Assembly (NCBI RefSeq): GCF_900186535.1
Contig: NZ_FYDE01000004.1
Span: forward strand, 496,001-560,000
Direction: 5' to 3'
Length of the DNA: 64,000 nt
Source of the DNA: Marasmitruncus massiliensis
Lineage (GTDB): Bacteria; Bacillota; Clostridia; Oscillospirales; Ruminococcaceae
A program made the position numbers and the translations under genes. The notes beneath the pieces were generated by a model. That model searched no databases. It saw only the letters and a program-made list of their open reading frames with translations, and was not told the DNA's origin. Shown in pieces: positions 2,274 to 43,193 of the stretch. Position 1 is the first letter of the stretch; each line of letters begins with the position of its first letter.

Positions 2274-3011
2274 GTGGTAATATACTATAGCGCAACTGGT
2301 AATTCCAAACATGTTGCTATCAAATTACATGAAGCATTTCAAGGGAAACTGGTAGATGTCTGTAACTTTGAGGAGCCTGCCACATTTTACTTGGAAGATG
2401 GGGAAACTCTATTTCTGGTAACCTTTAATTGTTTTTGGGGAATTTCAAACCACATGGAATCATTCCTCCAAAAAAGTGGATTTAATAATGTCAGTAAAAT
2501 AGTTGTTATTATCACATGCGGTGGATATTTAGGCGGAGGAGACGCCTCAATAGAAAAGCTATTTTTAGAAAAAGAACTTCCTAAGCCAACCGTCTACGCA
2601 CTAGCCATGGTCACAAACTATTCAATATTGCATGACATACCATCGTTGGAGATACAGAAAAGGAAATTGATCCATGCAGAAAAAGCTCTTAGTAAGATTA
2701 TTCAGGGAACGCAAAAACCTTATCGCAGTAGCTGGCTCATCCGACGATTAACGCCGAACATTCACGCTCGATATGAGAAAGCCCGGATCACTTCGCTCTT
2801 TACCGTGGACCGTTCCTGCATTCGTTGTGGACTGTGCGTGAAGAATTGTCCGGTTCATGCGATTGAAACGAAAGAAAACAAACCGTTTTGGGTGTCCCCG
2901 AAATGTGATAATTGCTTACGTTGCCTTCATCATTGTCCGGTTGCCGCTATCAACTATGGAGATTCCACCCGGAATTGTTTGAGATATACTTATGAGTCTT
3001 GTGAGAGGTAG
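2274..3011 (+). CDS. EFR1-family flavodoxin/ferredoxin fusion protein
   Basis: 245 residues starting with GTG, 10 bases after AAGGAGG. The N-terminus (IYYSATGNSKHVA) is a flavodoxin-like FMN loop. The C-terminus carries two 4Fe-4S motifs, CIRCGLCVKNCP and CDNCLRCLHHCP (about residues 183-224). Such proteins move electrons between a flavin and ferredoxin-type clusters; the partner is not known. It lies 2 bases before the LUD-domain gene, so the two are one transcription unit and probably one redox function. Confidence 0.85.
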   Translation: MVIYYSATGNSKHVAIKLHEAFQGKLVDVCNFEEPATFYLEDGETLFLVTFNCFWGISNHMESFLQKSGFNNVSKIVVIITCGGYLGGGDASIEKLFLEKELPKPTVYALAMVTNYSILHDIPSLEIQKRKLIHAEKALSKIIQGTQKPYRSSWLIRRLTPNIHARYEKARITSLFTVDRSCIRCGLCVKNCPVHAIETKENKPFWVSPKCDNCLRCLHHCPVAAINYGDSTRNCLRYTYESCER

Positions 3012-3013
3012 AT

Positions 3014-3631
3014 ATGGACGAAAGAATAAAGAAAGTAATTTTTAATTTGCAGCGGAACAATATTGCTGGATACTTTGTAAAGAACAAGGAAGAATTGCTT
3101 CAATTAATGGATACGTTGATGAAAAATGGTGAAAAGGTTGGATGCGGAGATTCCGTCACATTAGAGGAAACAGGTGTATTTGATTTTGTTCGAAGCAATG
3201 ACTTTGATTTTTATGATAAGCATCGATCCGGGCTGACATCGGATGAAAAGCGTGCAATCTACTTAAAAAATTTCGAGGTCGATACATTTTTAACCGGTAC
3301 GAATGCCATTACACTTGATGGGGAGCTATTCAACATTGATGGCAATGGGAGCCGCGTTGCCCCTATGCTATACGGGCCAAAGCAGGTAATCGTTGTAGTC
3401 GGTATCAATAAGTTGGTAGAGACCGTGGATGATGCAGTCTGCCGTGCAAGGCAAATCGCTGCACCTTTAGATGCGAAACGGCTAAAAAAGGGTACGCCTT
3501 GTACGAAGCTGGATAAATGCATCGATTGCAGACACGAACAGAGGATTTGTAATGACTTTGTTCTTATTACGGGACAGTTTGTCAAGAATAGAATAAAAGT
3601 AATCATTGTAAATCAAGCATATGGGTTTTAG
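3014..3631 (+). CDS. LUD-domain (LutC/DUF1121-like) protein
   Basis: 205 residues with the lactate-utilisation fold: GEKVGCGDSVTLEETGVFDFV near the N-terminus, then DTFLTGTNAITLDGELFNIDGNGSRVAPMLYGPKQVIVVVGINKLV. The C-terminus has four cysteines in C-x4-C-x2-C and C-x4 patterns (CTKLDKCIDC, C179) that could hold a cluster or metal. LUD proteins often accompany iron-sulfur oxidoreductases, which fits the flavodoxin/ferredoxin gene 2 bases upstream. Substrate unknown. Confidence 0.85.
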   Translation: MDERIKKVIFNLQRNNIAGYFVKNKEELLQLMDTLMKNGEKVGCGDSVTLEETGVFDFVRSNDFDFYDKHRSGLTSDEKRAIYLKNFEVDTFLTGTNAITLDGELFNIDGNGSRVAPMLYGPKQVIVVVGINKLVETVDDAVCRARQIAAPLDAKRLKKGTPCTKLDKCIDCRHEQRICNDFVLITGQFVKNRIKVIIVNQAYGF

Positions 3632-3721: not shown

Positions 3722-4132
3722 ATGAAAAAATATGCTTTTCCAGTTTTAATGTGGGTGTTGTTTGAAACCTTAGCCGCCACATTATGGCTGACACTTGACA
3801 ATATATTCTATCTTTTCAATTTTTCATACATAGGTACCTTTCTTGCTTTGGGCATAGCTTTTTATTTGGAAAAGATAAAATATACCCGCAGCATCGTACA
3901 ATTCGCTGTCGGTCTTTATATGCTTGTTTATTTTGGTATACTCTCCAATGAAAATATGCAGATCGAGGGTTTCTGTTATTATTTATTCTTAGGGGTATTG
4001 TTTGTATTGTACCCTTCTAGAGCCATTCAAGCCTCCGGCTTAGCCGGAGGTTTTGACTCTTTGTACAAGCAGTTTCAGCGGTTTCAACTAGAGCTTTGCC
4101 AAAATCTTCCAGCTTCAGTTCGTGGTAAATGA
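3722..4132 (+). pseudogene. Truncated membrane 4Fe-4S (NapH/YccM-like) protein gene
   Basis: The first ~95 codons encode three hydrophobic helices (VLMWVLFETLAATLWL, YIGTFLALGIAF, FAVGLYMLVYFGI) that I recognise as the N-terminus of polytopic 4Fe-4S-binding membrane proteins of about 250-300 residues. The cluster-binding half is missing. After about position 4017 the frame runs into unrelated sequence (an antisense hairpin and a foreign fragment), giving a meaningless tail to the stop at 4132. It follows the flavodoxin/ferredoxin and LUD genes and may once have been part of the same electron-transfer set. Family assignment is from memory of the N-terminus, so moderate. Confidence 0.55.
4032..4050. 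terminator. GC-rich terminator-type hairpin at a rearrangement junction
   Basis: CCTCCGGC / GCCGGAGG stem with a 3-base loop, followed by TTTTGACTCTTT on the + strand and preceded by AGAGCC. It sits exactly where the membrane-protein gene loses homology. On the - strand the flanking 4051-4140 reads as an open stretch (ELKLEDFGKALVETAETA), the 3' end of an unrecognised gene. Confidence 0.4.
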
Positions 4133-4141
4133 TTCCGCCGA

Positions 4142-4456
4142 TGACAACTGCATACGATTTCTGTCAGCCGTGCGGATTACAGCGGTTCCACAGCGCCTAC
4201 TCCCACGCTCGTCAGCAAAACGGACACACAGGTAGTATTGAATGCCGTCACCGTTTCCGGCCAGAACGTGGAATACGGCAAAAGCCTCTCAAACACCACG
4301 CCGACCGGGTGGCAGGATGGCACAACCTTCACCGGCCTGACAGCGGGCACGACCTTTTATTTCTTTGCCCGGGTCAAGCAGACCGCAGCGGTTGAAGCGG
4401 GTGGCGTCAGCAGTGCGCTTTTCTTTACCCTAAAGCCTTTATCTCCAAGACGTTAG
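4142..4456 (+). pseudogene. Fragment of a repetitive Ig/FN3-like surface protein
   Basis: Open frame without a convincing start, from after a TGA at 4139-4141 to a TAG at 4454-4456. It reads APTPTLVSKTDTQVVLNA then NVEYGKS then GLTAGTTFYFFARVKQT, typical of repeated Ig-like/fibronectin-III-like modules of large secreted clostridial proteins. GC content is higher than in the neighbouring genes. No signal peptide, anchor or full domain set is present, so it is a leftover of a larger gene. Confidence 0.55.
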
Positions 4457-4467
4457 CACTTTGTTAA

Positions 4468-4506
4468 CAGTATTGGGAGCAATACTAAAAGTTGCTCCCA
4501 ATACTG
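4468..4506. repeat. Perfect 15-bp inverted repeat
   Basis: CAGTATTGGGAGCAA (4468-4482) and its exact complement TTGCTCCCAATACTG (4492-4506) flank a 9-base loop. No T-run follows, so this is not a standard terminator. It lies between the surface-protein fragment and the redoxin gene. Confidence 0.5.
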
Positions 4507-4578
4507 CATCAATTGAAATGGTCTGTCACGCTGATTTCTGCTCCGGAATTTCTTTGTTGAGTTCGTGCCAACGCTTAA

Positions 4579-5124
4579 CTACTTTAACAGTTGGGCTAAC
4601 GCCTGCGGCGTGGGAATATCTCCGGCGGACACGCCGTAATGGACATAATCCAACATCAATTTAGGGGATACCACAAACGTGGCAGGAAGTTGCAGTTCAT
4701 TGCCTTCATATGCCCCATGAGTAAAGCCGGCTGCGGTGGCCTCTTCAATTTTTTCCATTGTATATGCATCGCCCATTTTCTCCATAGATTGTGCAGGTCC
4801 AATCTCAAAGCGCTTATAGAGTGTCTGGTCCGGGTCGCAAATGATATCAAAGGGCAATTCCTCCCGCTTGAGCTGCCCTGCCAGCCGCAGTGGATCGGAT
4901 TGCAGAACGACCAGCATCTGTCCGCCGGAACGTGCGATAGCAGAATGAGCTCGAGCGAACTGGTGGATATCGAATTGGCACAAGGTACAGCCATAATAGC
5001 GCAGAAACAGCAGAGCGGTCTTCCCGGTCACCCGGCTCGCGGTCTGGGACAGAGTACGTCCGCTCTCAAAGGGTGTGAAAAAAGTAAAATCCGGCATCTG
5101 AACGCCTACCATGAGTTTTGACAT
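4579..5124 (-). CDS. AhpC/TSA-type redoxin (peroxiredoxin-like)
   Basis: 181 residues with a thioredoxin fold: GVQMPDFTFFTPF start, strand ALLFLRYYGCTLCQ with the redox C-x-x-C (GCTLCQ), then MLVVLQSDP and FDIICDPDQTLYKRFEIG, typical of AhpC/TSA and Prx-like-2 proteins. The cis-proline strand (QLPATFVVSP) is present. AAAGGATG lies just before the ATG. It follows the GntR gene (5201-5986) in the same direction with a 76-base gap, so it may be read through from that unit. Function in peroxide or thiol metabolism is inferred. Confidence 0.8.
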   Translation of the reverse strand: MSKLMVGVQMPDFTFFTPFESGRTLSQTASRVTGKTALLFLRYYGCTLCQFDIHQFARAHSAIARSGGQMLVVLQSDPLRLAGQLKREELPFDIICDPDQTLYKRFEIGPAQSMEKMGDAYTMEKIEEATAAGFTHGAYEGNELQLPATFVVSPKLMLDYVHYGVSAGDIPTPQALAQLLK

Positions 5125-5200
5125 AGAAACATCCTTTCAGCATGCGCATCGGCAGGCCGCCTGGCTTCGGCGTATTAGAACATGTCTTTATGCCGGCCCA

Positions 5201-5986
5201 TCAGTCGAAAATATCCATACCTTTGACGGGCGTAATGCCGAGCATCTCCTCTGTGGCCTGCCGCAGCGCGGCGATATCAGAGTTAATGATACAATTGTAT
5301 ATTTTATTGTGGGTATCGTTTTCTCCCAACGGCGGAAGACCAGCCTCAGCCCGGCGGTGGGCGCGGGTGCTTAGCAGCTGGGTAATATGACTGCGGATTA
5401 GCTGCTGAACCATGAAGTAAACGTCCTTATACAGCTTGTTGTGGCTCATTTTTACCACTTTATAGTGGAAATTAAAATCGGCGTCCACCACACGTTCGAG
5501 CGCTGCCTCATTGTCCAAATTGAAATTATAGTCCAACGCAAGGCTGTTATAGTATGTCAGCGCGACACGCAGCTCCTCCTTCTCCGCATCAGTGGCGGAA
5601 AGGGTCGCTAAACGCATACACTCATATTCCAGTAGGTTACGCAGCTGCTGAACGTCGTGGTAGCGATCATCGCCACTATAAAAGACAGAAATCTCACTGA
5701 GCACAGGCTTAAGAGAAAAGTTACAGACGAAGGAACCCTCACCCACACGGGTTTCGATAATGCCAAGGGTGCTGAGCTTCTGCAAAGCCATGCGCACACT
5801 CAGGCGGTTGACGCCGAAGATGTCGGCAAACTCAGATTCCGAGGGAATCTTGTCTCCCGCTTTCCAGGTACCATCCGCGATATCCTGTTTAATGGATGCG
5901 CAGACCTGATCCACCACGGAGATCCGGCTGATTTTCATTTTTCGGTTGGAAGCCCGGCTGCTAAACTCTTTTTCCACACGGTTCAC
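5201..5986 (-). CDS. FadR-subfamily GntR regulator
   Basis: 261 residues. The GntR winged helix (VVDQVCASIKQDIADGTWKAGDKIPSESEFADIFGVNRLSVRMALQKL) spans about residues 24-72, followed by an all-helical FCD ligand domain containing the metal-site pattern DADFNFHYKVV and a late histidine. The GTG start at 5986 has a poor SD; an internal ATG at residue 17 is no better. It lies downstream of the two enolase-family genes and the permease and is the obvious candidate regulator of that operon, with a sugar acid or related inducer. Confidence 0.85.
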   Translation of the reverse strand: MNRVEKEFSSRASNRKMKISRISVVDQVCASIKQDIADGTWKAGDKIPSESEFADIFGVNRLSVRMALQKLSTLGIIETRVGEGSFVCNFSLKPVLSEISVFYSGDDRYHDVQQLRNLLEYECMRLATLSATDAEKEELRVALTYYNSLALDYNFNLDNEAALERVVDADFNFHYKVVKMSHNKLYKDVYFMVQQLIRSHITQLLSTRAHRRAEAGLPPLGENDTHNKIYNCIINSDIAALRQATEEMLGITPVKGMDIFD

Positions 5987-6012
5987 CTAAAATCACTTAT
6001 ATTTATATATTA

Positions 6013-6041
6013 ATTATAACGCTTATTATATAAAATGTCAC
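6013..6041 (-). promoter_or_regulatory. Promoter of the GntR gene
   Basis: On the - strand, GTGACA (6036-6041) and TATAAT (6013-6018) are separated by exactly 17 bases, about 27 bases before the GTG start codon. Two more TATAAT-like boxes overlap. So the regulator can be transcribed independently of the upstream catabolic genes. Confidence 0.55.
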
Positions 6042-6244
6042 TCCTTTTAAGAAAGTGAACCTACGGAAAAAGAGCAGCTTTAAAATTCCGGCAGTAAAAG
6101 CAGTCCATAATAGGCCAACGTCATCCCGTAAAAGATATCAGCCCGAGGCAGAATTTTGTGGATCAAGGATACTTAAAAATATTATAATCCTCGGCACACA
6201 CCGCCAGCTATATGTGGATGCTCAGATTAGGTGAGAACAGAAGG

Positions 6245-6281
6245 ACAGCCACCTTCTTGCCGGGAGGCGGAAGATGGCTGT
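6245..6281 (-). terminator. Hairpin after the enolase/permease operon
   Basis: 12-bp stem with one G-T-type mismatch (ACAGCCATCTTC / GAAGGTGGCTGT read leftward), 41 bases beyond the stop of the 6322-7527 gene. The following CCTTCTGTTCT is only moderately T-rich, so termination may be partial. Confidence 0.5.
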
Positions 6282-6321
6282 TTACTGTGGAAAGGGGAAT
6301 AGCGCAAAAGAGCGCGCGGGA

Positions 6322-7527
6322 TTACTTGATAACGACCTTCTTGGCCTGGGCCATGTACACCTCGCTCATCTCCTGACCGATGCCGGGGAGATCGGGAACT
6401 TCATAAAAGCCGTTCTTGGGCGCATAGTAGTATTTGCCTGCTGTTTTAAACTTGGTGAGCAGGTTAGCGTTGTGCTCTTCATGGATAACGAAGTTAGGGA
6501 TGATAGCCTCTACATGGAGCGCTGCGGCAGTAGCAATGGGGCCGCCGCAGACGTGTATCTGAACGCCTACATCGTAAACCTGAGCCATATCGCAGATCTT
6601 TTTAGTCTCCGTGATTCCGCCGGTGTTGGCCAGGTCGGGCTGGATGATGTCCAAGGTCCGATCCTCGAAGAACTGACGGAAGCCCCAGCGGGTATAGCTG
6701 CGCTCGCCGGTGGCCAGGGGCAGGGAGCAGCGCTCCTTAATATGCTTGAACACCGAGGGGTTGCAGGGCATGGTGGGCTCTTCGTAATACATGATCCGGT
6801 AGGGCTCCAGCGCCTTGCCCAGCTCAGCGGCTGTGTTGGCATCCAGCAGGGAGTGGATTTCCACAATAATATCCATATCGGGTCCGCCCGCCTCGCGGGC
6901 TGCGGCGATTCGTTCTACGGAGCGGGCCAAATCGTGCTGACGGTAGCAGCCGCGGATCTGAGTCCCCTGAGTGGCGAACACCTCGGTAAAGGGCTTTTCT
7001 ATGGTTGGGGCAAAGACCGGATCGATCTTAACAGCGTCATAGCCCTCGGCCATGGCGTCCTTAACAACGTCGTAATAGTCCTGCGGATCATACAGCAGGG
7101 TTAAAGCATCATTCTTTTCAATGAGTTTCCGCCAGCCAAACTGGAGCTGGGAGGCGTAAGCGCGCAGCTTGTCATTGGTCTTGCCGCCAAGCAGCTTATA
7201 GACGGGCTGATTCAGGGCCTTACCCTTGATATCCCAGCAGGCGATGTCGATGGCCGCCATGGCGGAGGTGACGACTACGCCGCCGCCCATGCCCCAAAAG
7301 GTGTGGCGGTGCAAGTGCTCCCAGATTTTTTCGGTATCGAAGGGATCAAAACCGATAACCAGCTTGGCAAAGTCCTGGCATTGGCCAAAGGCCGCTTCAG
7401 AGCAGTTACCGTAGGCCAAGCCGGCCTCGCCAAAGCCGCTGATGCCCTCGTCCGTATTGACTTTGAGGGTAACGAAGCCCCCGAGCGCGCCGTTGCCTAA
7501 GTAGCATTCAATGCTTGTGATTTTCAT
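6322..7527 (-). CDS. Mandelate racemase/muconate lactonizing-type dehydratase (enolase superfamily), 1
   Basis: 401 residues with full enolase-superfamily architecture: capping domain to about 120, then a modified TIM barrel. Visible catalytic positions are K167 and D169 (VKID), metal ligands near E223 (VEIHS), E249 (EEP) and E275 (GER), with D298 (PDLANTGG) and H325 (QIHVCGG). This layout matches the D-galactonate/D-mannonate dehydratase group, so dehydration of a sugar acid to a 2-keto-3-deoxy acid is likely. Substrate cannot be fixed. It is the third gene of a leftward operon (9161-10351, 7596-9017, then this) and is paralogous to the first. Confidence 0.85.
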   Translation of the reverse strand: MKITSIECYLGNGALGGFVTLKVNTDEGISGFGEAGLAYGNCSEAAFGQCQDFAKLVIGFDPFDTEKIWEHLHRHTFWGMGGGVVVTSAMAAIDIACWDIKGKALNQPVYKLLGGKTNDKLRAYASQLQFGWRKLIEKNDALTLLYDPQDYYDVVKDAMAEGYDAVKIDPVFAPTIEKPFTEVFATQGTQIRGCYRQHDLARSVERIAAAREAGGPDMDIIVEIHSLLDANTAAELGKALEPYRIMYYEEPTMPCNPSVFKHIKERCSLPLATGERSYTRWGFRQFFEDRTLDIIQPDLANTGGITETKKICDMAQVYDVGVQIHVCGGPIATAAALHVEAIIPNFVIHEEHNANLLTKFKTAGKYYYAPKNGFYEVPDLPGIGQEMSEVYMAQAKKVVIK

Positions 7528-7561
7528 GAGTATTTGCTCCTTTCTTTCACTATGAGTCCCT

Positions 7562-7586
7562 CACGGCTAAATACAATTTAGCCGTG
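7562..7586 (-). other. Intercistronic hairpin between permease and dehydratase
   Basis: Perfect 10-bp stem CACGGCTAAA / TTTAGCCGTG with a 5-base loop, lying in the 68-base gap between two genes of one operon. There is no T-run, so an mRNA processing or stability role is more likely than termination. Confidence 0.45.
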
Positions 7587-7595
7587 GGAAGGCCA

Positions 7596-9017
7596 TTAAT
7601 TTTGTGGTGTGGGTTGCTTCTGGTCGTCAGCCCACACGGAGGTATGTATCTCAATATTGCCGCGCTTGGCACGCCAGACGCCTATGGCTGCCATAGCCAG
7701 CAGAGCCGCCACGTTGGTGATAGCTAAGGCGGGTGTCATGGATAGGCACGACTTCCAGAATACCACGATAAATCCGGATAGAGACAACACACAGACCGCG
7801 AAGTACAGCCCGTCGGGTATATGGAATCGGGATTTTTTCCATGCCTCGGGATACTTTCCAGGCAGCCTGATGAGTGCCACAAAGTTTAAAAAGGCAAAGA
7901 AGGAAGTAAAGAGCTGTACCATGTTGGTGATGACAGTAATGGAAAGACCAAAAATGATGGGGATAATGCCTAAGACGTACATGAAGGTCAGAATGAGAAC
8001 GCGGGAACCCTGGGCGTTCTTTTTTCCGAAGCTGGCGGGGAGCCAGCCGTCGTCGCAGGATTGCCCGATGGTGATGGCATTATAAGCAAAGCTGGAGTTC
8101 AGCGTGGACAGCAGCGCCATAATGGGGCCGCCGATGATGAAGAAATAAAACAGCCATGCGGGGAAGATACGCTGGGCGGCAAAGACCAGCGTCGTGGAGG
8201 CACCGTATTCGCTCACGCTCATAACGCCGACGCCGGCCATGGCCACGCCCACATACAGAACAGTCAGCGTGGGGGCGGACAGCAGCAGGACTACAGGAAT
8301 ATCCCGTTTGGCGTTCTTGGCGTCACGGCCATAGGCGGTGGTCATGTAATAACCCTGGCAGGAGTATACGAACAGCAGGACGGCACCGGTAAAGCCGCCG
8401 GAGATTTGTCCCCCGGTAAAGGTGATGCCCCAGCCGTTGATAAGAAAGTTGGGATCTGCAAAATCAAAGATTGGCAGCTTCATCTTGAAGATGCCCACAA
8501 TAGCGAAGAGGAGCAGGGCGGCAATGAGCAGCCATGTCATCAGCTTTTGCGCCTTTGCCATGACGTCTACGCCCAGCAGATTGACGACGAAGAAGAAGGT
8601 CAGCAGGGACACGCCTACGATAATGCGGGGTATGGTACCGCCCAGGGCAGGGATAATGTCACCAAAATAGGCGGATGCAGAGGCGCCGAACAAGGATAAA
8701 GACAGGCACTGGGTCAAATAGGCGAATGCAAAGATGCCGGAAGCGGTGGGACCGGCCAAATCGCACAGCATGGAGTAGTTTCCGCCGCCAAGGCGGAGGG
8801 TGGATGAGACAAAAACAAAGGGAAGGATCATAACGAACCCCATAATGATAGCCATGAAATAGGCAAGCCAGGCTGAATAGCCGGTCATTTTGATGGCGGG
8901 AACAATGAGTGTAATGACGCCGGCACCGATAACCTGCCCAATGGCCAGCGCGTAGAGTTCAATTCTTCCAAGTGTTCCGGACTTTGGTGCGGGTTCCTTG
9001 ATAATATTGACTGCCAT
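7596..9017 (-). CDS. APC-superfamily permease
   Basis: 473 residues with about 12 hydrophobic segments. The first helix has the APC substrate-site glycines (AIGQVIGAGVITLIVPAI, residues 26-43), and SSFAYNAITIGQSCDDGWLP lies before helix 9. The family imports amino acids, polyamines or related organic cations/anions with H+ or Na+. It lies between two sugar-acid-dehydratase-like genes, so its substrate is probably what they consume, which is unusual because sugar acids are normally imported by MFS, TRAP or gluconate-type carriers. The C-terminus is a short hydrophilic tail. Confidence 0.85.
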   Translation of the reverse strand: MAVNIIKEPAPKSGTLGRIELYALAIGQVIGAGVITLIVPAIKMTGYSAWLAYFMAIIMGFVMILPFVFVSSTLRLGGGNYSMLCDLAGPTASGIFAFAYLTQCLSLSLFGASASAYFGDIIPALGGTIPRIIVGVSLLTFFFVVNLLGVDVMAKAQKLMTWLLIAALLLFAIVGIFKMKLPIFDFADPNFLINGWGITFTGGQISGGFTGAVLLFVYSCQGYYMTTAYGRDAKNAKRDIPVVLLLSAPTLTVLYVGVAMAGVGVMSVSEYGASTTLVFAAQRIFPAWLFYFFIIGGPIMALLSTLNSSFAYNAITIGQSCDDGWLPASFGKKNAQGSRVLILTFMYVLGIIPIIFGLSITVITNMVQLFTSFFAFLNFVALIRLPGKYPEAWKKSRFHIPDGLYFAVCVLSLSGFIVVFWKSCLSMTPALAITNVAALLAMAAIGVWRAKRGNIEIHTSVWADDQKQPTPQN

Positions 9018-9160
9018 AACAAAAACCTCCTCATTTTTTCGCCCTATTTTGTGGTAATGCGGTAATATTGCGTTAGCAGAGGCTTATAGCGAAGGCTATC
9101 CTTGCCCCTTTTATTTTTACACCTTCTTCTAAACTCATAGCGACCTTCTCACGAGGGAGA

Positions 9161-10351
9161 TCATTCCACCACTTTGTAGAGACGCGCCTTGTCAATGGCC
9201 TCCTGCAGGAACTCGTTGCCGATGCCTGGCAAGTCGGGGATGGTGAAGTACCCGTTTTCGGGCTGGAGGTTGTGCTTGGTGAGGCCCAGACATGTGTCCA
9301 TCCGATTGCAGGTGTGATGCTCGTGAATGATGAAATTGGGGATAACGCACTCCAGATGCAGCGCCGCGTTGGTGGACAGTGGACTGCCTGCCACATGGAT
9401 TTGGATGCCTGCATCAAAAGCATGAGCCATGTCACAGATCTTCTTCACCTCGCTGATACCTCCGCAGTTGCCGATGTCGGGCTGGGCCAACTGCAGGAGA
9501 TTGCGCTTGAAGTACTCGGCATATTGCCAGCGGGAGAAGATGCGTTCGCCGTTGGCAATGGGCACGCTAGTGTATTTGGTGATATATTCCACCGTCTGGA
9601 CGGTAGGAGTGTTGGGCTCCTCGAAAGCCAGAATATGATACTTCTCGGCCAGCTTGCTCAATTGAACCGCGCCCAGAGCGTCGGGATAAGAGTGATTTTC
9701 CATGATGATGTCCACCTCGTCGCCAGCGGCCTCCCGGGCGGCTTTCATCCGGGCTTCCACCATCTTGAGCTTGGTAGGGGTAAGAAAGCCGGTGGTGTCC
9801 AGAAAATTCAGAGGTTTGCCCGCCTCATCCCGGTCGAAAAAGTCAATCTTGACAGCGTCAAAGCCCTCGGCCACGGCTAGCTTTACATTATAGGCGTAAT
9901 CTTCCGGCTTCACGGCCCAGAGGTGTTCGCTTACACCAACCTGACCCCAACCAAACTGCAGCTGGCTGGCATAGGCGCGGAGCTTGTCGCGAATTTTACC
10001 ACCCAGCAGCTGATAAACCGGAACATTAAAATACTTACCCTTGATATCCCAAAGTGCCACATCGATGGCGGCAATGCCAGAGAATACTACCGGGCCGCCA
10101 TTTTGGCCCCAGAAGGTCTTTTTATGCATGGTCTCCCAGATGAACTCGGTCCGCAGAGGATCCATACCGATAATCAGTTCCGCTAAGTCGCACACCATAC
10201 CGAATGCCGCAGAACCACCCACGCCATAGGCCATGCCGGCCTCGCCGTCACCGCATATGCCCGCATCGGTATGGATCCGGCAGCCGATAGGGCTGTTCAT
10301 TTTGCTATTTGCAGTGGGCAAGCGGAAGACCTCTACCTTGGCAATTTTCAT
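9161..10351 (-). CDS. Mandelate racemase/muconate lactonizing-type dehydratase (enolase superfamily), 2
   Basis: 396 residues from the ATG at 10351, which has AAGGAG 8 bases upstream (a longer frame to 10432 has no SD). Key residues: K168/D170 (VKID), E218 and H220 (MENHS), E244/E245 (FEEP), E269 (GER), D292 (PDIGNCGG) and H319 (QIHVAGS). These are the enolase-superfamily metal and acid-base positions, dehydratase-like. It is the first gene of the leftward operon, followed by the APC permease and the paralogue at 6322-7527. The two paralogues differ clearly, so they may act on two epimers or on consecutive substrates. Confidence 0.85.
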   Translation of the reverse strand: MKIAKVEVFRLPTANSKMNSPIGCRIHTDAGICGDGEAGMAYGVGGSAAFGMVCDLAELIIGMDPLRTEFIWETMHKKTFWGQNGGPVVFSGIAAIDVALWDIKGKYFNVPVYQLLGGKIRDKLRAYASQLQFGWGQVGVSEHLWAVKPEDYAYNVKLAVAEGFDAVKIDFFDRDEAGKPLNFLDTTGFLTPTKLKMVEARMKAAREAAGDEVDIIMENHSYPDALGAVQLSKLAEKYHILAFEEPNTPTVQTVEYITKYTSVPIANGERIFSRWQYAEYFKRNLLQLAQPDIGNCGGISEVKKICDMAHAFDAGIQIHVAGSPLSTNAALHLECVIPNFIIHEHHTCNRMDTCLGLTKHNLQPENGYFTIPDLPGIGNEFLQEAIDKARLYKVVE

Positions 10352-10403
10352 GCTCGTCACTCCTTGTTTGCTAATCGCTTGTTCAGTTGTTCGCCATGTA
10401 GTC

Positions 10404-10432
10404 AGCATATATATTTCCGTATGTAAAGTCAA
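10404..10432 (-). promoter_or_regulatory. Promoter of the enolase/permease operon
   Basis: On the - strand TTGACT (10427-10432) and TATGCT (10404-10409) have a 17-base spacer and lie about 55 bases before the ATG at 10351. Confidence 0.6.
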
Positions 10433-10502
10433 GTGAGATTTGTTATTTTTGTATGATATTAAGATTGTAGCTTTTAAATTTTGTTTATTTTCACTTTTGA
10501 AT

Positions 10503-10541
10503 GAGCCTCACTTTTCAAGTTTTTTTAGAAAAGTGAGGCTC
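10503..10541. repeat. Perfect 14-bp inverted repeat upstream of the operon
   Basis: GAGCCTCACTTTTC (10503-10516) is repeated inverted at 10528-10541, with an 11-base T-rich loop. It lies about 70 bases upstream of the operon promoter. It could be a terminator for rightward or leftward traffic or a regulator site. Confidence 0.5.
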
Positions 10542-10725
10542 CCAAACCTTATTGCTGGATTTACGATTTTGTGGTATGAATCTTCGGAAGAATTTGGTAT
10601 AATATCCCTAAATTCGACTGAGGTATATAAATCCTATATGATGCCGGGATCCCGTGTGTATACGACGTTCATCCAACGGTAGGCCATAGCAATTATCCTG
10701 CCAAGACTTGTCAAGCAATTTTTAA

Positions 10726-10986
10726 TATTTTGCTTCTTTCAGAGAAGAGCATAACAAACAAGGCCTGTTTCCAGACCTAAAAAAGTTTATTTGTTTATAC
10801 GTTGCTTATCGATTATTATGCCTTTACATTGAAGCAAGACGCAATCCGTCTTGTTTGGATGAAAGACTCAGGGAGCTATTATCAACCATAGGGATATATC
10901 AACAATATCAGCAAATTACAGATTTTATCTCGTGGTGTAATTCACCAGATGATGAAAGCACTGACACTACTGCCGTAGGCGTTTAG
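10726..10986 (+). pseudogene. Open frame without start codon, unrecognised remnant
   Basis: 87 codons open between TAA (10723) and TAG (10984-10986), with no ATG/GTG at a sensible place and no SD. The peptide (for example LKKFICLYVAYRLLCLYIEARRN) has coding-like composition, but I do not recognise it. It is most likely the 3' part of a lost gene. The rest of 10433-11119 shows only the promoter, the inverted repeat and AT-rich DNA; CATTATGTTTAATTTATTG at about 11082-11100 resembles the recurring intergenic element. Confidence 0.3.
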
Positions 10987-11119
10987 CGCTATATTCATAT
11001 ACCGAGGACAAGTCCAAATGCCTTGACTCCCCATGCAGGACTTTTATGACAATCAATAATGGTCATATATTTGAGATTCACATTATGTTTAATTTATTGA
11101 TCAAGGAGATGAAAATTAA

Positions 11120-11365
11120 ATGGAAAGCGAGATAAAACCAGGCCGATATCGCCATTTTAAGGGTAATGAGTATAACGTTTTATACATTGCCAAGCACTCC
11201 GAAACTCTGGAATCGATGGTTGTGTACCAGGCTTTATACGGGGATGGCGGAATCTGGGTGAGGCCCGCTTCCATGTGGAATGAAGAAGTTGAAATGGATG
11301 GCGCTATTTATAAAAGGTTTGAATACATAGATGAAAAAAATAATTTGTCCAATAATTGGTCTTGA
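11120..11365 (+). CDS. DUF1653-domain protein
   Basis: 81 residues with the DUF1653 core: GRYRHFKGNEYNVLYIAKHSETLE, then VVYQALYGDGGIWVRPASMWNE. AAGGAG lies about 12 bases before the ATG. The family is a small beta-rich protein common in cassette and phage contexts, without known activity. It has no promoter of its own that I can see and belongs to the rightward array. Confidence 0.85.
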   Translation: MESEIKPGRYRHFKGNEYNVLYIAKHSETLESMVVYQALYGDGGIWVRPASMWNEEVEMDGAIYKRFEYIDEKNNLSNNWS

Positions 11366-11415
11366 AAATAAAGATACTAATAGTTTTACAGAGTTAGGAT
11401 TGAGAAGAAAACAAG

Positions 11416-11440
11416 GCTCAATTATTTATATTTTGTGTGG
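11416..11440 (+). repeat. Partial intergenic element (AATTATTTATAT box)
   Basis: CTCAATTATTTATATTTTGTGTGG after the DUF1653 gene matches the right end of the recurring element (compare 13016-13037). The left hairpin half is not clear here. Confidence 0.35.
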
Positions 11441-11543
11441 AGCGCAACTTTGAATTGGCAGAAAGCAAACATTAGGTGATAAAATTCAAAGCGTCCATCC
11501 GTTAAAATTTAATGTATACTTCAAAATGTGAGGTGGAGAAATT

Positions 11544-12344
11544 GTGACAGACAAAAAAATCATAGTACAATTTACGATGCTGACATTTTGCATAGCCTAT
11601 CTTGTATCAGGTGCTTTAATTGCTCTTGGGCAATTCGGATATTCGGTTCATAATTGGGTTCACTCGTTACAGCAATTCGGGATGAATATTCCTTTTGCAA
11701 TCTACATTCTGTCGCCTGCTATTGCTTCCTATATCGTTCTAAAGAAAAATAACAAAATAGCAGATTTTAAGGAATGGTTGAAAACTGTTTTTTACGCCAA
11801 AAATAATATATCTCTCTATTTGTTCGTTGTTGCAGGGCTTGCACTGTATTTTTTGATACATATTGCAGTTTCAGGCCGCACGGAAATGGTGCTTCCATTT
11901 TATACGTTCTTCCTTTCCCTACCGGGTAATCTTTTTATCGGAGGTTTGGAGGAAGCTGGATGGACGTATATCATGCAGCCAGGGCTTGACAAAAAATTTG
12001 GTTATGTTTTATCTTGTGTCCTTGCCGGGATTATTTGGATCTTATGGCATATCCCGCTTTTCTTCATACCGGGGACAAATCACGGAGAAGGACTTATTAA
12101 CTTCTGGATGTTTGCCGTTCAATGTATGGCTTTTAGATTTTTCTTTGGAGCAATCTACAAAGTATCAGGAAAAGGCCATGTGTTTATGTGCGTATTATAC
12201 CACACCATGTTCAATGCGGCATCCCCCATCTTTGGCACCATGACTATGACTTGGGCGGGAACAATTGCCGCAAATGCTGTGATTGTTCTTGTTTCAATTG
12301 TAACCGTTGTGATATACGACAAAAAGAACAGGCGAATAGTATGA
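11544..12344 (+). CDS. CPBP-family intramembrane glutamic protease
   Basis: 266 residues with about eight membrane segments. The conserved CPBP (Abi/Rce1-like) motifs are present: EEAGW (residues 136-140), WHIPLFF (about 169-175) and HTMFN (about 220-224). These place the catalytic glutamates and histidines within the membrane. Bacterial CPBP proteins often give self-immunity to bacteriocins or process prenylated peptides. The GTG start follows AGGTGGAG. The stop codon overlaps the first bases of repeat copy E. Confidence 0.85.
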   Translation: MTDKKIIVQFTMLTFCIAYLVSGALIALGQFGYSVHNWVHSLQQFGMNIPFAIYILSPAIASYIVLKKNNKIADFKEWLKTVFYAKNNISLYLFVVAGLALYFLIHIAVSGRTEMVLPFYTFFLSLPGNLFIGGLEEAGWTYIMQPGLDKKFGYVLSCVLAGIIWILWHIPLFFIPGTNHGEGLINFWMFAVQCMAFRFFFGAIYKVSGKGHVFMCVLYHTMFNAASPIFGTMTMTWAGTIAANAVIVLVSIVTVVIYDKKNRRIV

Positions 12345-42158: not shown

Positions 42159-43193
42159 ATGACTTTTGGCAATACGAACAAAGATTTTGATGTAATCAGT
42201 TTGGGAGAAATTATGCTGAGGCTTTCGCCGACGGGCCTGGACAGGCTTTCCCAGTGTGAAACGCTTGAAAAGAGGCCGGGCGGAAGCGAACTGAACGTGG
42301 TTTCCGGTATTTCGCTGCTGGGCCTGCGTACAGGTATTGTAACGAAAATTCCGGATAATGACATGGGGCGTTTCATCAAAAATAAGATCCGTTTTTACGG
42401 CGTCAGCGACGATTATCTGATTTATGACAGTTCGGAGAATCGCCGCATCGGCATCTATTACTACGAGAGCGGCGCTTACCCCAGAAAACCCGCTGTGATG
42501 TATGACCGCGCGTTTTCTTCGATCAACAGCATCGGTATTGATGAAATTGACCCCAAGATTTACAGCGATTCGCGGGTGTTCCACACCAGCGGCATTACCC
42601 TGGCACTGAGCGAAAACTGCCGCAAGACAGCGGTTGAAATGATCAAACGCTTTAAAGAAAAGGGCGCGCTGATTTCTTTTGATGTCAATTACCGCGCAAA
42701 CCTTTGGAACGAGGAAACAGCGCGCAAAACCATCTACGAAATCCTGCCTTATATTGACATTCTGTTTGTTTCTGAGGAAACGTCCCGCCGCATGATGCAG
42801 CGGCAGGGCACGATGGAAGAAATTATGCGCGGCTATTGCGCGGAATTCGGATGCAAAGTGGTGGCCTGCACCCATCGGAAAGTGAAGAGCCCCAAATGCC
42901 ATTCGTTCAATTCGACGATTTATCTGCATGAAAACGATATGGTTTATACCGGCATTCCATTTGAAGACATTGATGTGATTGACCGTATCGGCAGCGGAGA
43001 TGCCTATGTGGCGGGCGCGCTGTTCGGCCTGCTGAAATATAACGATGTAAAAAAAGCGGTGGAATTCGGAAACGCGATGTCTGCGGTGAAGAACACCATT
43101 GTGGGCGATATGCCGGCTTCTGATTTTGAAGAAATCAGCCGTGTGATTGCGCTGCATAACTCCGGAACTGCCGGAGACGAGTTGAATCGATAG
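42159..43193 (+). CDS. kdgK: PfkB-family sugar kinase, 2-keto-3-deoxygluconate-kinase-like
   Basis: 344 residues. N-terminal DVISLGEIMLRLSP, substrate loop RPGGSELNVVSG (39-50), SFDVNYR (173-179) and the anion-hole/catalytic motif GSGDAYVAG (278-286) with base D281. This pattern is typical of KDG kinases, which phosphorylate the 2-keto-3-deoxy acids made by sugar-acid dehydratases such as those at 6-10 kb. A physical link to that operon is absent. The gene lies alone between its promoter and a terminator. Specific substrate is inferred only from similarity. Confidence 0.78.
   Translation: MTFGNTNKDFDVISLGEIMLRLSPTGLDRLSQCETLEKRPGGSELNVVSGISLLGLRTGIVTKIPDNDMGRFIKNKIRFYGVSDDYLIYDSSENRRIGIYYYESGAYPRKPAVMYDRAFSSINSIGIDEIDPKIYSDSRVFHTSGITLALSENCRKTAVEMIKRFKEKGALISFDVNYRANLWNEETARKTIYEILPYIDILFVSEETSRRMMQRQGTMEEIMRGYCAEFGCKVVACTHRKVKSPKCHSFNSTIYLHENDMVYTGIPFEDIDVIDRIGSGDAYVAGALFGLLKYNDVKKAVEFGNAMSAVKNTIVGDMPASDFEEISRVIALHNSGTAGDELNR

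Follow-up and report, generated by a model that had tools for sequence, protein, structure and literature searches.

A cassette of two enolase-superfamily paralogues and an APC carrier in Marasmitruncus massiliensis as a candidate front end of an acid-sugar pathway

The 64,000-nucleotide stretch of the Marasmitruncus massiliensis genome analysed here (the window; contig NZ_FYDE01000004.1, positions 496,001 to 560,000) carries a cassette in which two complete enolase-superfamily paralogues, termed E1 and E3, surround a carrier of the APC superfamily, with a GntR-type regulator downstream. This layout had been proposed in an earlier sequence-only reading and was borne out by the open reading frames (ORFs), by Pfam and by the gene order, whose conservation in relatives rules out a chance arrangement. 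Relatives keep nearly orthologous enzymes next to unrelated importers, and with moderate confidence we lean towards the view that the cassette forms the first part of an acid-sugar pathway, which would import acids and dehydrate them to 2-keto-3-deoxy acids, the paralogues dividing the stereoisomers between them. Its parts are:

9161–10351, minus strand: E3, enolase superfamily, mandelate-racemase subgroup, dehydratase-like, 396 aa (Pfam, N-termini of orthologues)
7596–9017, minus strand: APC-superfamily carrier without assigned substrate, 473 aa (Pfam AA_permease_2)
6322–7527, minus strand: E1, second dehydratase-like enzyme of the enolase superfamily, 401 aa (Pfam, identity to E3)
5201–5986, minus strand: regulator of the GntR family carrying an FCD ligand domain, with GTG at 5986 as start codon (Pfam)
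10375–10395, minus strand: operator-like conserved site GGCGAACAACTGAACAAGCGA, just 5' of the E3 ATG

For E3, a TTG at 10432 had originally been taken as start. We replaced it by the ATG at 10351, because this codon is preceded by GGAGTG, because the N-terminus (MKI...) then agrees with that of the orthologues, and because the operator-like site would fall within the longer ORF. The intergenic gaps amount to 143 bp between E3 and the carrier gene, 68 bp between the carrier gene and E1, and 335 bp between E1 and the regulator gene. Directly ahead of the latter lies a promoter-like site (11 of 12 positions, 6041–6013), so that the four genes need not form one transcript and the GntR/FCD gene may be transcribed from its own promoter. 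In the region 4000–12000, Rfam returned no RNA element up to an E-value of 0.1. About 150 bp upstream of E3, a perfect 14-bp inverted repeat with an 11-base loop (10503–10541) is followed by no T-run on either strand.

Both enzymes contain MR_MLE_N and MR_MLE_C above the Pfam cut-offs (PF13378: 195.6 bits for E1 and 169.7 for E3, cut-off 29.4), which places them in the mandelate-racemase subgroup, and they are 46% identical over 399 columns of a pairwise alignment. Each carries three acidic metal ligands, a His general acid and a His-Asp dyad; at positions 183, 185, 209, 235, 258, 285 and 310 of DgoD, which we take to be the catalytic numbering of that enzyme, E1 and E3 alike read E, H, E, E, D, H and E, with Glu as first metal ligand where DgoD has Asp. 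Nine positions of the catalytic set are kept across 26 sequences of the E1 clade and 18 of the E3 clade with one exception, an E3 orthologue (L037, 4118–2931; loci are labelled L plus a number) in which the Glu metal ligand corresponding to E275 of E1 is Lys and which may be an inactive copy or reflect an error in the sequence.

By the curated models, neither enzyme is a galactonate or mannonate dehydratase. The D-galactonate dehydratase model (DgoD, NF010624) gave 258.8 bits for E1 and 232.4 for E3 against a curated cut-off of 311, and the D-mannonate dehydratase model (ManD, NF043051) 209.8 and 175.4 bits against 550. The galactonate model is well able to pass, since two paralogues of the same genome exceed its cut-off (L139, 647.8; L141, 324.4). 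Together with the catalytic residues, these scores support the view of two dehydratase-like paralogues without assigned substrate. The best solved matches are 2o56 for E1 (421.6 bits) and 2gl5 for E3 (401.0 bits), and the nearest structures (2o56, 2gl5, 4e6m, 2ox4) were named "putative" enzymes by their depositors; despite several solved structures, literature searches turned up no substrate assignment for the E1/E3 branch. In a FastTree phylogeny the E3 clade stands apart from the E1 clade, with further local duplications of E1, e.g., three copies in L037. At G000 C3, two enolase-superfamily genes (about 707.2–708.4 kb and 1047.2–1048.3 kb) have nearly equal match scores, and the former is followed by an enolase-like stretch that is apparently split, with a stop codon within one match.

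The carrier contains the APC-superfamily domain (AA_permease_2, 104.8 bits, cut-off 27) and lies far below every curated model that it touches, the best reaching 66.8 against 556.8 bits; it thus does not coincide with a known exporter. Other members of the superfamily are likewise distant: MJ0609, presumably ApcT, matches at 35 bits, and import of fructoselysine as by FrlA was rejected, as the identity is only 26% over 285 columns, which cover part of the carrier length. The motifs of transmembrane helices 1 and 6 were aligned across 39 sequences, from which no conclusion on the substrate is drawn. One genome encodes five APC carriers in tandem (L137, 5592–13817).

To follow the cassette through other genomes, we surveyed one genome per species and took the best 80 of 150 relatives, which yielded 76 distinct loci, the record of the window itself not being among them; genes were called with scoring by composition, and 2 of 123 enolase places escaped the caller. 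Twenty of the 76 loci encode a protein at least 75% identical to E1 (E1-core loci; cut copies in L035, L038 and L052). E3 accompanies it at at least 75% identity in 18 of these 20, as a partial copy in L034 and L041, the exceptions being the draft contigs L026 and L035, of which the latter is cut by the contig end. The APC carrier is present at at least 65% identity in 16 (not in L031, L034, L035 and L041) and the regulator at at least 45% in 14. This context survey, a check that the sequence-only reading had suggested, confirms the triplet as a recurrent unit. The number of enolase paralogues per E1-core locus ranges from one (L026) over four (L037) to five (L023, L034), and an island of about 21.5 kb in CE91-St43 (about 857.5–879 kb; L023 and L157, 8495–18500) holds seven, together with APC, TRAP (tripartite ATP-independent periplasmic), DUF401 and Mem_trans carriers. 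Hosts in the survey include Anaerotruncus colihominis, Clostridium sp. AT4, [Clostridium] clostridioforme, Oribacterium and metagenome-assembled genomes of a Faecalibacterium, an Erysipelotrichaceae and a Spirochaetaceae member. Of 391 genomes searched in the class, 3 had a match to E3 at 1e-180, and of 148 in the family 5 had one at 1e-100, the source genome included in each case, and this rare, patchy occurrence suggests that the cassette has spread horizontally.

The enzymes also occur without each other: L026 has E1 and the APC gene and no E3 within the locus, L133 has E3 and no E1 within 18 kb, and L134 has E3, an APC carrier and another paralogue and no E1 in 16 kb. E1 and E3 are therefore probably separate enzymes. 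That they form the subunits of one hetero-oligomer, or catalyse successive steps of one reaction chain, is very unlikely: their joint presence in 18 of the 20 E1-core loci would fit, but each has a full catalytic set of its own, and an obligate complex is disfavoured by the same three loci.

The carrier is a variable element of the cassette. L034, whose E1 and E3 homologues are 82% and 88% identical to those of the window, has a DctP-DctP-DctQ-DctM set and a Mem_trans protein instead, and the best APC match of that genome is 40% identical. In L041, E3 (cut by the contig end), E1 and DUF401 stand in a row, and the assembly contains no APC match at 1e-20; the completeness of the L034 and L041 assemblies is not stated. 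L031 consists of E3, E1 and the regulator with no adjoining carrier cluster, the best APC match of its genome (48%) having an internal stop. Conversely, an APC carrier 32% identical to that of the window adjoins, in L142, an enzyme with 84% identity to the one that L042 has beside a TRAP system and DUF401, and APC and DUF401 occur together in L023, L024 and L025. Within four genes of an enolase gene in the surveyed loci (L065 yielded no called one), members of the APC cluster were counted in 24 loci, of the regulator cluster in 34, TRAP receptors in 15 and DUF401 in 7. As some relatives keep the enzymes with an unrelated importer, the cassette probably handles an ordinary organic acid and not an amino compound. 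For both TRAP receptors of L034 the best matches are 4p47, with 149 and 142 bits, and 7bbr, with 147 and 136 bits; the latter is reported as solved with bound 2-keto-3-deoxy-D-gluconate, and CxaP is described as a sugar-acid receptor (PMC11668362). This distant likeness may be taken as a hint, and no more, towards sugar acids. The neighbourhood of an enzyme 65% identical to E1 (L048) looks like a sugar-acid set by its annotation: it comprises an FGGY kinase, a pair of DeoC-family aldolases, a PTE-family protein and a ketopantoate-reductase-like protein.

In the pathway that we favour, the APC carrier would import a polyhydroxy carboxylic acid, and E1 and E3 would each act on related acids, taking the proton from C2 and the hydroxyl from C3, so that 2-keto-3-deoxy acids are formed. 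Dehydration across C2 and C3 by such dehydratases abolishes both stereocentres, so that C2 and C3 epimers converge on one product. Paralogues of different stereospecificity could thus feed a single kinase/aldolase pair encoded elsewhere, which would explain why there are many paralogues and why the cassette needs neither a kinase nor an aldolase; the FCD regulator would sense an acid, probably acting at the site described below. A wider version, which we put forward as a doubtful though conceivable extension, sees a horizontally spread module of "stereochemical fan-in", with up to seven paralogues, a conserved operator and interchangeable carriers, among them a branch of APC carriers switched from amino compounds to sugar acids, by which different C2/C3 isomers of unusual sugar acids would be channelled into one central 2-keto-3-deoxy-acid route; that its hosts are mostly gut-associated bacteria is an equally tentative part of it.

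Several observations weigh against the acid-sugar pathway. Positions at which E1 and E3 differ consistently show no significant enrichment around the catalytic residues (10 of 27 variable columns compared with 51 of 231 elsewhere, p 0.07). The receptors of L034 also match sialic-acid receptors at 112–121 bits, 7bbr ranks only fifth for the receptor of L039, TRAP receptors as a class bind many acids, and the extra paralogues may be supplied with different acids by the other carriers. Moreover, carrier homologues of 29–35% identity stand beside aminotransferase-family, RidA or AhpC/TSA proteins; in L056 (enolase-enolase-APC, carrier 38% identical), the enolase gene has an aminotransferase-family gene at a distance of 2.8 kb and one for RidA at 7.4 kb; and a pyridoxal-phosphate enzyme (L067), an Asp/Glu racemase (L068) and an NlpA-type lipoprotein together with an ABC ATPase (L087) are found near some enolase relatives. 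Finally, in the source genome no second full copy of the operator-like site marks a kinase or aldolase gene.

The neighbours just named would fit an amino-sugar or N-substituted acid taken up by the APC carrier, from which water would be eliminated to an enamine or imine product that releases ammonia, and amino compounds are indeed the main substrates of APC carriers. We nevertheless regard this alternative as rather unlikely, since TRAP or DUF401 carriers replace the APC carrier next to E1 and E3 homologues of 82–88% identity, since the neighbours in L048 are of the sugar-acid kind, and since phmmer with one aminotransferase-family and one RidA query found neither among the called genes of the 20 E1-core loci. 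From the APC carrier, the sequence-only reading had suggested an amino-sugar acid, an N-substituted acid or an acid without assignment; the last of these stands, whereas the first two lose ground with the carrier replacement in L034 and L041 and the context of L048. APC carriers adjoining aminotransferase-family proteins were also seen in L159 (4109–10572), L160 (5312–8797) and L144 (2467–6783), in some cases accompanied by RidA, by AhpC/TSA (as a fusion in L144) or by flavodoxin-ferredoxin proteins, and by their gene content these look like a separate amino-acid module using the same carrier branch.

A non-sugar hydroxy acid, e.g., a dicarboxylate or a cyclic polyhydroxy acid, that would be dehydrated and then reduced or subjected to CoA transfer, appears similarly improbable. 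Relatives of about 48–69% identity do stand near CoA-transferase-like (L045, L046), 2-hydroxyacid dehydrogenase, LarA-like, CitMHS, DUF169 and old-yellow-enzyme genes. Such gene clusters were, however, absent within four genes of the enolase in the 20 E1-core loci, as far as clustered neighbours are concerned, and the context of L048 is again sugar-like. Lactonase and UxaA-like proteins as well as TRAP, CitMHS and sodium-sulfate-type carriers are further neighbours of more distant enolase relatives, and L054 adjoins a GH120-insertion protein.

With respect to regulation of the proposed acid-sugar pathway, the GntR and FCD domains both exceed their Pfam cut-offs. The operator-like site TAGCGAACAAnnGAnnAA was first spotted in a comparison of 16 upstream regions and then counted in 24 hand-picked operon starts, namely those of the window, of 18 of the 20 E1-core loci (L035 and L041 had no upstream sequence) and of L093, L134 and L157, with two starts each for L023 and L037. 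Its 8-mer GCGAACAA occurs at most 300 bp upstream in 19 of these 24 starts; of the five without it, L031 and L036 are one base off in TAGCGAACAA, and the remainder comprise the first operon of L023 and the two starts of L037. Part of the stretch reads N in L022. Of the 419 other orders in which its letters can stand, AGCGAACA, which is the site one base earlier, occurs in 20 of 24 starts and every other in at most six. The 8-mer is absent from 21 hand-picked TRAP or other starts and present in three of eight distant APC starts (L050, L056, L058). The GntR/FCD regulator probably acts at this site. The extended pattern has a single full match in the source genome, that of the cassette, and five matches with two mismatches; a regulon reaching the kinase or aldolase genes was rejected, as the backward control also gave six matches. 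A tighter pattern with zero mismatches was matched in 5 of 10 genomes, and in CE91-St43 twice, before the E3 operon and before a second operon comprising an enolase, a second GntR, another enolase, two DctP, DctQ, DctM and Mem_trans.

The gene content of the cassette agrees with the earlier statement that it lacks an aldolase and a kinase for 2-keto-3-deoxygluconate (KDG). A KDG-kinase-like gene had been located 32 kb away and does exist, with a score below the curated cut-off and no operator-like site in the scan of the source genome. The source genome also encodes four KDPG-type (2-keto-3-deoxy-6-phosphogluconate) aldolases elsewhere, and a galactonate-type run of TctC, TctA, DgoD (647.8 bits, cut-off 311), a KDPG-type aldolase and DGOK. 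By annotation, a sink for 2-keto-3-deoxy acids thus exists in this genome. Two further genes of the window, the kinase being a possible downstream step, are:

42159–43193, plus strand: PfkB kinase, similar to kinases of KDG and 2-keto-3-deoxygalactonate (241 bits, model cut-off 440)
4579–5124, minus strand: AhpC/TSA (SelL-related) redox protein after the GntR gene; a questionable cassette member, with no counterpart found in the other core cassettes

As a cassette member the AhpC/TSA gene was discarded, since phmmer, run over the called genes of all 76 loci, recovered relatives in just two of them, L067 and L088. On the plus strand at 2274–3631, a 4Fe-4S protein gene is followed by one for a LUD-domain protein, and relatives of the first lie near several enolase loci.

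Among known systems, a Salmonella locus which we take to be STM2273 (structures 2gl5/4e6m, 2o56 and 2ox4) belongs to the same subfamily and likewise combines the enzyme with a carrier and a GntR regulator. It differs in having a single enzyme and an MFS carrier, and literature searches found no assigned substrate; in L106, a locus of this type between gyrA and ubiG, the enzyme is 50% identical to E1 and 48% to E3. The DgoD operon of Escherichia coli shares the superfamily, the catalytic residues and the logic of acid-sugar dehydration, whereas the identities are 34% (E1) and 32% (E3), the first ligand is exchanged as described, and aldolase and kinase are missing from the cassette. Mannonate dehydratases of the ManD/RspA type have the superfamily and the third-strand His in common, with 29% identity to RspA. 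TRAP systems of the CxaP type for sugar acids (PMC11668362, PMC5812351) are absent from the window cassette and resemble, with distant similarity of the receptors, those that replace or accompany the APC carrier in its relatives. Acid-sugar dehydratase clusters as such are known, and the cassette would add a multiplication of paralogues, carriers that replace each other and conservation of the operator-like site. New are the near-orthologous enzymes that stand with TRAP or DUF401 carriers and lack a close APC homologue, the operator-like site before core operons, in one complete genome before both the E3 and the TRAP operon, and the occurrence of E1 and E3 without each other.

The cassette also occurs, in compact form, in the cultured strain Anaerotruncus colihominis DSM 17241 (L024), which brings paired paralogues, alternative carriers and the conserved operator-like site together and so offers a handle on an enzyme branch for which literature searches found no assigned substrate. 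If the carrier does move sugar acids, a branch of the APC superfamily would have a nitrogen-free substrate, and annotation could no longer safely equate "APC" with "amino acid". A division of stereoisomers among the paralogues, if real, would explain why copies of such enzymes gather in clusters without aldolases.

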